Shown piece after piece: positions 7,253 through 10,004 of a stretch of 64,000 nucleotides of DNA. The notes under the pieces were generated by a model. That model was not told the DNA's origin. It made no database searches and worked only from the letters and a program-made list of their open reading frames with translations. The position numbers were made by a program, and so were the translations under genes. The DNA is from Reyranellaceae bacterium (GTDB lineage: Bacteria; Pseudomonadota; Alphaproteobacteria; Reyranellales; Reyranellaceae). Location of the stretch: assembly GCA_022844045.1 (NCBI GenBank), contig JALHMM010000005.1:62001-126000 (forward strand), written 5' to 3'. Each line of letters opens with the position of its first letter. Within the stretch, counting starts at the first letter, position 1.

Positions 7253-8140
7253 ATGGAATCGAGTCCCGCCGCGCAGCCATCGCCGCCGATAGAGATCGAC
7301 CGTCCGGTGGCCCAGACGCTGCCGGTGGTGCTGGCCTCACCGCACAGCGGACGTGCCTATCCCGCTGATTTCCTGCGCCAGACCCATCTCGACGTATCCG
7401 TGCTGCGGCGCGCCGAGGACGCCTATGTCGACGACCTGTTCGCGCTGGCGGCGAAATCCGGCGTGCCGATGCTCAAGGCGCTCTATCCGCGCTCCTTCGT
7501 CGATGCCAATCGCGAACCCTACGAGGTCGATCCGGCGATGTTCGAGGGCGCCCTGCCCGGTCACGCCAACACGCGCTCGCCGCGCGTCGCCGCCGGCCTG
7601 GGTTGCCTGCCGCGCGTCGCTTTCGATGGCCAGCCGCTCTATCGCCGGCGCCTGCCGGTGGCCGAACTGGAGCGCCGACTGGCCTGGTACTATCGGCCCT
7701 ACCACGCCGCGCTGCGCAAGCTGATCGACGAGACGCTGGAGCGCTTCGGCCATTGCATCCTGGTCGATTGCCACTCGATGCCGTCCAACTCCCCGGTCGG
7801 GCTGGGCGGCAAGGGCGGCCGGGTGGATTTCGTGCTCGGCGACAATCACGGCGCCGCCTGCGCGCCAGCGCTGATCGGCCTGGCCGAGAGTTGGCTGCGG
7901 GTGCGCGGCTATCGGGCCATGCGCAACCAGCCTTATGCCGGCGGCTTCACCACCCAGCACTACGGCGCGCCCGGTCGGGGCGTGCATGTCCTGCAGGTCG
8001 AGATCAACCGGGCGCTCTATATGGACGAGGCGGCGATGCGCCCGCATGCCGGCTTCGCCGCGCTGTCGCGCCACCTCGCCGAATTCATCGAGGATGTCGG
8101 CCACGCCACCCTGGGCCATTCGGCCTTCGCCGCCGAGTAG
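7253..8140 (+). CDS. N-formylglutamate amidohydrolase family protein (HutG-like)
   Basis: A 295-residue zinc-dependent amidohydrolase that in characterised members releases formate from N-formyl-L-glutamate, the last step of one histidine pathway. Family marks are LASPHSGRAYP at the N-terminus, DAYVDDLF, the central VDCHSMPS and the late VHVLQVEINRALYMDE. No other hut gene is in the window, so the true substrate may be another N-acyl amino acid. The ATG at 7253 has no clear ribosome site; TAATCA lies 6 bases before it, which would fit a very short or absent leader. It is the leftmost gene of a region rich in amide- and peptide-cleaving enzymes. Confidence 0.85.
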   Translation: MESSPAAQPSPPIEIDRPVAQTLPVVLASPHSGRAYPADFLRQTHLDVSVLRRAEDAYVDDLFALAAKSGVPMLKALYPRSFVDANREPYEVDPAMFEGALPGHANTRSPRVAAGLGCLPRVAFDGQPLYRRRLPVAELERRLAWYYRPYHAALRKLIDETLERFGHCILVDCHSMPSNSPVGLGGKGGRVDFVLGDNHGAACAPALIGLAESWLRVRGYRAMRNQPYAGGFTTQHYGAPGRGVHVLQVEINRALYMDEAAMRPHAGFAALSRHLAEFIEDVGHATLGHSAFAAE

Positions 8141-8168
8141 CCGTCGCCCCGTTTCGTCCTCCCAGGCG

Positions 8169-8269
8169 AAAAAAAGGCGGTGTCAAAGACACCGCCCGAG
8201 TTTTAGGGAGGAAACGCCCAAGACGGGCATTACGACAAACAAAGAGGCCGTCGAAACGACGTTTGCCGC
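8169..8269 (-). ncRNA. mmgR: alpha-r8 (MmgR) family small RNA
   Basis: Read leftward, this spacer holds the parts that define the alphaproteobacterial alpha-r8 sRNA family. An upstream stem (GCCC-GTCTT-GGGC, 8216-8228) comes first, then the single-stranded decamer TTTCCTCCCT (complement at 8205-8214), and finally a perfect 9-bp terminator hairpin (GGCGGTGTC-TTT-GACACCGCC, 8176-8196) ending in seven T. An additional hairpin CGTCG-TTT-CGACG (8249-8261) lies near the 5' end. A sigma-70-like promoter places the start near 8269, giving about 100 nt. Known members are trans-acting and linked to growth and polyhydroxybutyrate storage in Sinorhizobium. The function here is inferred by family. The surrounding spacer is clearly more AT-rich than the genes. 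Confidence 0.8.
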
Positions 8270-8275
8270 ACGCCA

Positions 8276-8304
8276 AATATGGTGCATATGCGAAGAGCAG
8301 GCAA
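8276..8304 (-). promoter_or_regulatory. Promoter of the alpha-r8 sRNA
   Basis: On the minus strand TTGCCT (8299-8304) and CATATT (8276-8281) are separated by exactly 17 bases. The start would fall 6-7 bases downstream, near 8269. This is one of the best sigma-70 matches in the window. Confidence 0.6.
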
Positions 8305-8504
8305 GAGAAAAATAATGCTTTAGTTTCAAGATATAAACGCCTGTTTACCGTGCAGGCCCTGTGTTTTATTTTTGCAACGCAGCAGGATTTCTCGTGCGAG
8401 CCCTGCGTGGTTTCGTACGACCCATGCCGGCGTGAGGCTGTTCGCCGGCCGCTGGTCCGGGCACGATTGGCCGCGATTTCGCCGACCGATCAAGGAGTTC
8501 GCGG

Positions 8505-10004
8505 ATGGCCCGCAAGATCGTCATCGCCATGATGATGCACGAGACCAACACCTTCTCGCCGGTGCCCACGCCGCTGAGTTCGTTCGGGCCTAGCGGGCCG
8601 CTGGTCGGAGCGGCGGCGGTCGCCGAGGCCGAAGGCACCAACACCACGATCGGCGGCTTCATCAAGGTGGCGCGGCGGATTGGCGCGGAGATCGCCGTGC
8701 CAATGTCGGCCAGCGCCCATCCCTCGGGCTTCGTCGACAAGGGAGCCTACGAGCGGATGAGCGCGGCGATCCTCGAGGGGATCGGCAAGGGCTGCGACGC
8801 GGTGTTCCTCGCGCTCCATGGCGCCATGGTCGCCGAGCATTTCGACGATGGCGAAGGCGAGCTGCTGCGCCGTATCCGCGCCCTGGCGCCCAGCCTGCCC
8901 ATCGCCGTCGGACTGGATTTCCATACCCAGCTCACGGCGGCGATGGTCGAGAACTGCGATGTCATCGCCGGCTACCGCACCTACCCGCATATCGACATGG
9001 GCCATACCGGCGAGCGCGCCGGCAACACGCTGGTGCGCATGCTCGACGGCGAGGTCGCGCCACGCATGGTCTGGGGCGTGCGGCCGATGCTGACCAGTTC
9101 GCTGGTCCATACGCCCTCGCGCCAGCCCATGAAGGACATCATGGACATGGCCAACGCGGCCGAGGACTCCGGTCGGGTGCTCAACGCCTCGGTATTCGGC
9201 GGCTTCCCGCAGGCCGACATCCCGCACCTGTCGTGCTCCGCCGTCATCGTCTGCGACAAGCGCACGGCCGAAGGCGAGATCCTGCTCAACCGCCTGCTCG
9301 ACATGGCCTGGGACCGTCGCGAGGCCTTCCTTTACCGAGGGGCGCCGTTGGCCGAACAGGTCGCCGGCGCGAAGACGCTCGAGGGCGGGCCGATCATCCT
9401 CGCCGACCACGGCGACAACACCGCCTCGGGCGGCACGCAGGACGTGATGAGCGTGGTCGAGGAGGCGCAGCGGCAGGGTCTCGAGGATGTCTGCGCCGGG
9501 CCGATCTGGGATCCCGCAGCGGTCGCCAAGATGATCGAGGCCGGCATCGGTGCGACGGTGAGCCTCGAGCTCGGCGGCAAGGTCGACATGCCGCAGCTCA
9601 ACCTCAAGGGCAAGCCGCTCAAGGTCAGCGGCAAGGTCAAGTGCATCACCGACGGCGAGTTCGTCGTCACCGGGCCGATGGCCACCGGCACCAAGGTGCG
9701 CATGGGCCGCACCGCCGTGCTCGACACCGGCACGATGCAAATCGTCGTCTCGGAGAAACGCAGCGAGCCTTACGACCTGGGTGTCTTCACCCACTGCGGA
9801 ATCGATCCAAGGCGCAAGAAATACGTCATTATTAAGTCGCGCCAGCACTTCCGCGCTGGCTTCGAGCCAATCGCCAAGCACATTGTGATGTGCGACGGTG
9901 ATGGCTGCACCAGTTCCGACCTGGCGCTGTTCACCTATGTCAATCGGCGCAAGCCGATGTACCCCTTCGAGCCCGATCTACAGCTTGGCCGCAACGAGGC
10001 GTGA
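8505..10004 (+). CDS. M81 family metallopeptidase (MlrC-like), copy 1
   Basis: A 499-residue protein of the family named after MlrC, the enzyme that cleaves linearised microcystin peptides; other members probably act on small amide or peptide substrates. The N-terminal DUF1485 domain starts with HETNTFSP and has LALHGAMVAEHFDDGEGE and GLDFHTQ. The C-terminal MlrC domain includes ADHGDNTASGG and the end motif KSRQHFRAGFEPI. AAGGAG lies 9 bases before the ATG. A small secreted protein gene overlaps the stop codon (TGATG), with a D-aminoacylase next. A second, diverged M81 gene lies at 12.7-14.2 kb. The cytoplasmic location follows from the absence of a signal peptide. Confidence 0.9.
   Translation: MARKIVIAMMMHETNTFSPVPTPLSSFGPSGPLVGAAAVAEAEGTNTTIGGFIKVARRIGAEIAVPMSASAHPSGFVDKGAYERMSAAILEGIGKGCDAVFLALHGAMVAEHFDDGEGELLRRIRALAPSLPIAVGLDFHTQLTAAMVENCDVIAGYRTYPHIDMGHTGERAGNTLVRMLDGEVAPRMVWGVRPMLTSSLVHTPSRQPMKDIMDMANAAEDSGRVLNASVFGGFPQADIPHLSCSAVIVCDKRTAEGEILLNRLLDMAWDRREAFLYRGAPLAEQVAGAKTLEGGPIILADHGDNTASGGTQDVMSVVEEAQRQGLEDVCAGPIWDPAAVAKMIEAGIGATVSLELGGKVDMPQLNLKGKPLKVSGKVKCITDGEFVVTGPMATGTKVRMGRTAVLDTGTMQIVVSEKRSEPYDLGVFTHCGIDPRRKKYVIIKSRQHFRAGFEPIAKHIVMCDGDGCTSSDLALFTYVNRRKPMYPFEPDLQLGRNEA

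Follow-up and report, generated by a model that had tools for sequence, protein, structure and literature searches.

Members of the alpha-r8 family of small RNAs (sRNAs), which includes MmgR of Sinorhizobium meliloti and SisA (alpha-R8) of Caulobacter crescentus, are described as having a weak hairpin followed by a single-stranded 5'-UUUCCUCCCU-3', a Rho-independent terminator and, in most species, a neighbouring gene for N-formylglutamate amidohydrolase (FGase), which is the usual neighbour of alpha-R8 (PMC12559287). SisA of Caulobacter represses the mRNA of a TonB-dependent receptor together with a large set of others, likely via the same 10-mer (PMC12559287). At mmgR of S. meliloti, a site of the type YGCRNYGCR is bound by PhaR (PMC12542648), and a conserved dyad between the -35 and -10 elements of this gene is noted in a review (PMC8401924). 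The family has few studied members and gains from the present analysis an unstudied lineage, the Reyranellaceae; the one paper found on Reyranella and sRNA was unrelated, as judged by its title and the opening of its abstract.

Rfam analysis of the 64-kb window, i.e., the whole stretch of Reyranellaceae DNA under study, gave two matches over cut-off, one to a tRNA and the other to RF00519 (suhB/mmgR, i.e., alpha-r8). The latter match, on the minus strand at 8161-8235, was full-length (model positions 1-77) and scored 58 bits against a gathering cut-off of 41, a result that was repeated in a local covariance search. The assignment to alpha-r8 (MmgR), proposed in a first-pass annotation of this DNA, was thus borne out by the covariance model. 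Other elements named in that annotation were likewise found on the minus strand where it had put them, including the decamer TTTCCTCCCT (8214-8205), a GCCC/GGGC stem-loop (8228-8216), a terminator with a 9-bp stem (8197-8175) and seven T (8175-8169), and the hexamers TTGCCT (8304-8299) and CATATT (8281-8276) with 17 nt between them; its estimate of roughly 100 nt also agreed with the predicted length of 101 nt. The features of the locus are as follows.

8169-8269, minus strand: predicted alpha-r8 (MmgR/SisA-type) sRNA of about 101 nt, from RF00519 and the fold, with the 5' end deduced from the position of the -10 element
8232-8269, minus strand: 5' hairpin of 14 bp with a 6-nt 3' bulge (CUCUUU), from the fold, upstream of the Rfam-matched part
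8213-8231, minus strand: stem 1, from the fold, with the core GCCC-GUCUU-GGGC at 8228-8216 (core pairs invariant in 44 of 44 relatives)
8205-8214, minus strand: decamer seed UUUCCUCCCU, in which the model leaves CCUCCCU unpaired but usually pairs the first two U
8169-8197, minus strand: intrinsic terminator, from the fold and a terminator scan, with a stem of 9-10 bp (10 with a G-U pair), a 3-nt loop and seven T
8299-8304, minus strand: -35-like element TTGCCT (TTGnnn before CAT in 68 distinct loci)
8276-8281, minus strand: -10-like element CATATT, conserved among 68 relatives (column profile) and absent from the output of a consensus scan
8279-8294, minus strand: promoter element TTCGCATATGCACCAT, which reads TTCGCRNNYGCAYCAT in relatives, a likely operator conserved in 68 of 68 loci
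7253-8140, plus strand: FGase domain gene (PF05013, E = 9.5e-75), convergent neighbour and synteny marker
8505-10004, plus strand: M81 metallopeptidase/MlrC gene (PF07364, PF07171), divergent neighbour

The family traits listed above were present in the window, i.e., the predicted single-stranded UUUCCUCCCU at 8214-8205, the Rho-independent terminator at 8197-8169 and the adjoining FGase gene. The minus-strand RNA is thereby an unremarkable addition to an established family and can be detected by a standard Rfam search. Very probably, its gene is an intergenic one for a trans-acting alpha-r8 sRNA that has its own promoter (8304-8276) and terminator, that would be transcribed under the control of a regulator and would act through Hfq-dependent seed pairing to nutrient-uptake mRNAs.

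The decamer TTTCCTCCCT occurred once in the 64 kb, as opposed to 0.04 occurrences expected from shuffling. Folding of the 101-nt RNA from 8269 gave a structure of -41.6 kcal/mol (z = -5.4, with none of 200 shuffles equally stable) that consisted of the 5' hairpin and stem 1, followed by an open CCUCCCU and then the terminator. The unpaired probability of CCUCCCU was 1.0 for starts at 8269 and 8271, while that of its first base was 0.91 for a start at 8268 and 0.56 for a start at 8267. With a start at 8275, which adds six 5' bases, the best fold changed, canonical stem 1 was lost and part of the seed was paired. Thus, the structure model depends on the start site, which was itself inferred.

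The 5' hairpin had been described in the first-pass annotation as an extra one, not typical of the short Sinorhizobium form. It is indeed absent from that 77-nt form but is common in other alphaproteobacterial members, and the description needed correction in this respect. Conservation of the hairpin was assessed in 44 relatives, obtained from 66 distinct loci by reduction to 45 under 93% identity and removal of L030 (hairpin shortened, misaligned); three loci from other families (L008, L010 and L019) and loci short of flank were also left out, and the stems compared were named by the analyst. Across the 788 cells of the whole named structure, 99.9% were paired. Changes on both sides were noted in 8 of the 14 hairpin pairs, with double changes in 65 cells, and these pairing and double-change values were reached in none of 500 shuffles, while slid structures gave at most two such pairs. 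A covariation measure based on further pair types was not above shuffles (430/500), and stem 1, being invariant, provided covariation evidence neither way. In L030, as read from the sequence, the outer stem of the hairpin was kept and the inner stem was absent.

Folding of the 5' end was also examined across the class in 62 loci, drawn from the matches to RF00519 (approximately one per family and mostly best matches), that comprised two from the host's own family, one from f2 and 59 from others. The mean z of the 50 nt before stem 1 was -2.34, with z < -2 in 35 of the 62, whereas the corresponding values for a control stretch farther upstream were -0.32 and 6 of 62; for the window's own 5' hairpin, the 50-nt stretch alone gave z = -1.5. 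On the basis of the class-wide values, a 5' hairpin is a common feature of family members other than the short rhizobial form of 77 nt. The RNA itself is ordinary, but less has been described about its extra folded 5' end and conserved promoter switch.

The mature RNA might instead begin at stem 1 and resemble the 77-nt form, with the 5' hairpin either cleaved off or representing symmetry of promoter DNA. This explanation, although in keeping with the start of the Rfam model just before stem 1 and with the length of S. meliloti MmgR (PMC7143759), is unlikely, given that the double changes noted above, which include swaps of G-C to A-U, preserve the hairpin pairs, and that the column profile from 68 relatives puts the -10-like element approximately 6-8 nt before the hairpin. 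Transcription that starts from this element therefore includes the hairpin.

The rightward orientation of both neighbouring genes (7253-8140 and 8505-10004) agreed with the first-pass annotation. The RNA, which it had called antisense to the flanking genes, is intergenic, and since it overlaps neither flanking coding sequence, it runs in the opposite direction to both without being antisense to them. The gene at 7253-8140 scored 129 bits with the NCBIfam hutG equivalog model, which is below the cut-off of 278.75, and its stop is separated from the end of the T run by 28 nt. Upstream of the M81 gene, at 8339-8396 on the plus strand, the ClpQY_promoter family gave a weak match that did not reach its cut-off (18.1 bits vs 42) and is probably due to chance.

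Among 98 loci that carried GGGCGTTTCCTCCCT, 90 had FGase as the convergent gene downstream; the 98 include named as well as unnamed copies, and 74 were distinct in sequence. Of the eight loci without an FGase call, six had less than 400 nt of downstream DNA, and the other two (L007 and L103, on contigs of equal length and probably one locus) had no FGase gene within the 1.6-2.6 kb examined. A match to M81 was present in the fetched stretch, irrespective of position, for 86 of the 98 loci, one of these matches having only 29% identity. Across the class, a convergent FGase gene was close downstream in 42 of 62 loci and was not found close by in 20. The frequent position of FGase directly downstream speaks for an alternative in which the RNA works chiefly in cis, whether as convergent antisense RNA or through a shared terminator that controls the FGase gene. 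Such action is unlikely, however, for the RNA does not overlap the FGase coding sequence, from which it is 28 nt distant, it is retained in the 20 class-wide loci in which no FGase gene was detected nearby, and three Caulobacter paralogues encoded elsewhere than beside FGase have the same core and are bound to the same sponge (PMC12559287).

Membership in a related family of the CCUCCC type (AbcR/alpha-r15 or SorY) rather than alpha-r8 is highly improbable, for although SorY (RF02651) gave a weak match and alpha-r15 members are partly homologous to RF00519 (PMC7143759), the score of this match was 22.6 bits against a cut-off of 111, as opposed to 58 bits for RF00519, and the locus bears the marks of alpha-r8 in its exact decamer and its FGase neighbour.

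The distribution of the RNA was examined with RF00519. In the host's own 6.4-Mb assembly, where 150 of 270 candidates were scored, the six matches at E up to 1 included one over cut-off; the other five were considered as additional alpha-r8 copies and rejected, all being sub-threshold and none having the exact decamer, and one of the five (L002/L264) is a candidate for a different RNA, described below. Matches over cut-off were found in 46 of 61 genomes searched, including 36 of the 37 from the host's own family (the exception was G030), and, with strict filters, in 135 of 289 genomes across the class. An exact 28-base core pattern was present in 67 named stretches, largely labelled Reyranella, Enhydrobacter, Vineibacter or unclassified Alphaproteobacteria/Rhodospirillales; the few labelled Asaia, Rhizobium or Caenispirillum were taken for misnamed bins. 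Second alpha-r8 copies over cut-off, each with the full decamer, were noted in two genomes of the host's family (L273, G008:C3, 47.9 bits and L274, G023:C1, 41.5 bits). Separately, a second sRNA candidate, in which CUCCCAGACGUGAAGCCUCCCUGUUUGACUU is followed by a terminator-like stem, was present in 6 of 11 Reyranellaceae stretches fetched (L264 to L269). The G000 copy (L002/L264, G000:C28:10050-10350, minus strand) scored 27 bits with RF00519 and also gave weak matches to SorY and BjrC1505; it looks like another anti-Shine-Dalgarno RNA of the CCUCCC type and is possibly AbcR-like.

Conservation was also evident in the promoter region. The spacing from TTGnnn to CAT was 17 nt in 67 of 68 distinct Reyranella-type loci, including f2 locus L007, and 18 nt in the other. 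A consensus scan of 7900-8560 returned the terminator but no sigma-70 promoter; by hand count the hexamers match at 8 of 12 positions and the scan needs 9, so that the promoter call rests on conservation. The element TTCGCRNNYGCAYCAT was present in all 68 of these loci, i.e., those with enough upstream DNA, and was located by the column profile in the spacer between -35 and -10. The half-sites of this element are two bases apart, as opposed to one base in the PhaR motif, and a PhaR site of standard spacing was looked for in the window promoter and not found.

None of the 68 Reyranella-type loci carried the PhaR/AniA-type motif YGCRNYGCR at -75 to -20 from the GGGCG anchor. Among the 59 class-wide loci of other families, where positions -75 to -20 were counted from stem 1, the motif was present in 37, as compared with 0.6 expected when single bases were shuffled and 3 in a control stretch, and the two-base-spaced version was present in 8, as compared with 0.7 expected and 3 in the control. 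PhaR is encoded in the host genome. In an uncontrolled count, the standard motif was found between -350 and +60 of the crude start in 13 of 17 phasin loci of the host's family, the other four being without it. Since most of these loci keep the standard motif, changed PhaR specificity in the host's family looks unlikely. Two-base-spaced TTCGCAACTGCG or TTCGCATCTGCG was noted beside standard PhaR-type motifs upstream of second phasin genes from G002, G003 and G000 (L149, L150 and L151, respectively).

The promoter element appears to be an operator change in the Reyranella-type lineage that replaces the PhaR site. A wider scenario is possible and is offered tentatively. Alpha-r8 may be an old, class-wide output of the PHB-sensing repressor PhaR, with the operator at the promoter in most families; the Reyranellaceae, together with one related genome of the same order, may have lost this operator and gained the strictly conserved TTCGCRNNYGCAYCAT in the spacer between -35 and -10, so that a carbon-storage RNA would answer another metabolic signal, and the class-wide 5' hairpin, which lies outside the Rfam model, may be a functional domain.

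An NtrC site in the promoter was considered and rejected on spacing by inspection by eye against the consensus. A search of five genomes for the pattern TTCGCANNTGCGAA gave seven places in three of them, while the reversed control gave none. Three of these places represent one conserved site (L258, L256 and L259, near position 1500), where the palindrome separates a citrate synthase gene from a divergent gene for a helix-turn-helix/citrate synthase fusion, as identified by Pfam for L258 (G000) only. The other places adjoin frames that we take to be hisG-like and LysR/DinB-like. A looser pattern of the element occurred at 29 places in the host's own genome. The similarity of TTCGCANNTGCGAA to the element in the RNA promoter is a lead that points to the regulator of the latter.

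Sites complementary to the seed were sought in genomes G000, G002 and G003, with Hfq also being encoded in the assembly. The pattern GGGAGGAAACG occurred at 8, 7 and 4 places, respectively, counts that include the RNA gene itself at one place per genome, as compared with 2, 2 and 2 for the reversed control. Of these 19 places, 10 were just ahead of the start of an open frame and 9 were without one near, three of the latter being the RNA gene. Corresponding numbers for TAGGGAGGAAA were 3, 2 and 1, as compared with 1, 0 and 0 for the reversed control, and 2 of the 6 preceded a frame start. Part of this enrichment is expected without any RNA because GGGAGG is common in Shine-Dalgarno sites.

The leading predicted target was a gene for a family-5 ABC substrate-binding protein (SBP; PF00496) at G000:C2:9362, which carries GTTTTGGGAGGAAACGATG with 16 predicted pairs to the seed region. 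This sequence was identical in G002 and had one extra T in G007. The long pairing was kept in 3 of 8 orthologues, the five more distant ones keeping GGGAGG with shorter pairing, and 33 of 41 genomes were without an orthologue match at E <= 1e-60. The predicted energy of the pairing was -24.6 kcal/mol, as compared with -16.4 kcal/mol for the best of 42 crude ORFs in the window, a comparison in which region lengths were unequal and starts crude.

Based on the target complementarity and the precedent of SisA, repression of uptake genes by covering of the Shine-Dalgarno site is regarded as the most likely mechanism. A regulator bound to the conserved element in the -35/-10 spacer would control transcription. 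The transcript would fold into the 5' hairpin, stem 1, the exposed anti-Shine-Dalgarno seed CCUCCCU and the terminator with its U tail and, with Hfq, the seed would pair to the Shine-Dalgarno regions of nutrient-uptake mRNAs and thereby block translation, the best candidate being the mRNA for the family-5 SBP.

What merits further attention is the covariation of the 5' hairpin together with the operator pattern. Several predictions are testable, including the candidate target with its 16 pairs, a 5' domain that extends beyond the public model and an element that apparently stands in place of a PhaR site. Should this view of the operators hold, a conserved RNA would be wired to differing metabolic signals across lineages.

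Among known systems, AbcR (alpha-r15) and SorY also carry a CU-rich anti-Shine-Dalgarno seed but belong to different families. AbcR has ABC-transporter targets (PMC7143759), which resembles the predicted SBP target. The mark of AbcR/alpha-r15 is two unpaired CU-rich anti-Shine-Dalgarno motifs; 8169-8269 contains one CCUCCC and also the CU-rich hairpin bulge CUCUUU. MmgR of S. meliloti shares with the present RNA the RF00519 family, the decamer, stem 1, the terminator and a promoter of its own. It differs in length, being 77 nt (PMC7143759) as opposed to the approximately 101 nt predicted for the Reyranellaceae RNA with its covarying 5' hairpin, and in its promoter, where the PhaR/AniA site has the core TGCACCGCA (PMC12542648), whereas the window promoter is without that spacing and has TTCGCATATGCACCAT between -35 and -10. 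SisA of C. crescentus has the same decamer, a terminator and the FGase neighbour and pairs through its 10-mer with Hfq (PMC12559287), as we infer for the RNA described here. Caulobacter contains four siblings and the sponge CrfA, as opposed to the one copy over cut-off found in the host, where two exact searches for 11-base complements, a weak test, gave no CrfA-like sponge. As part of the preferred explanation, the RNA gene is regarded as the FGase-linked counterpart of Caulobacter SisA and as a relative of S. meliloti MmgR.
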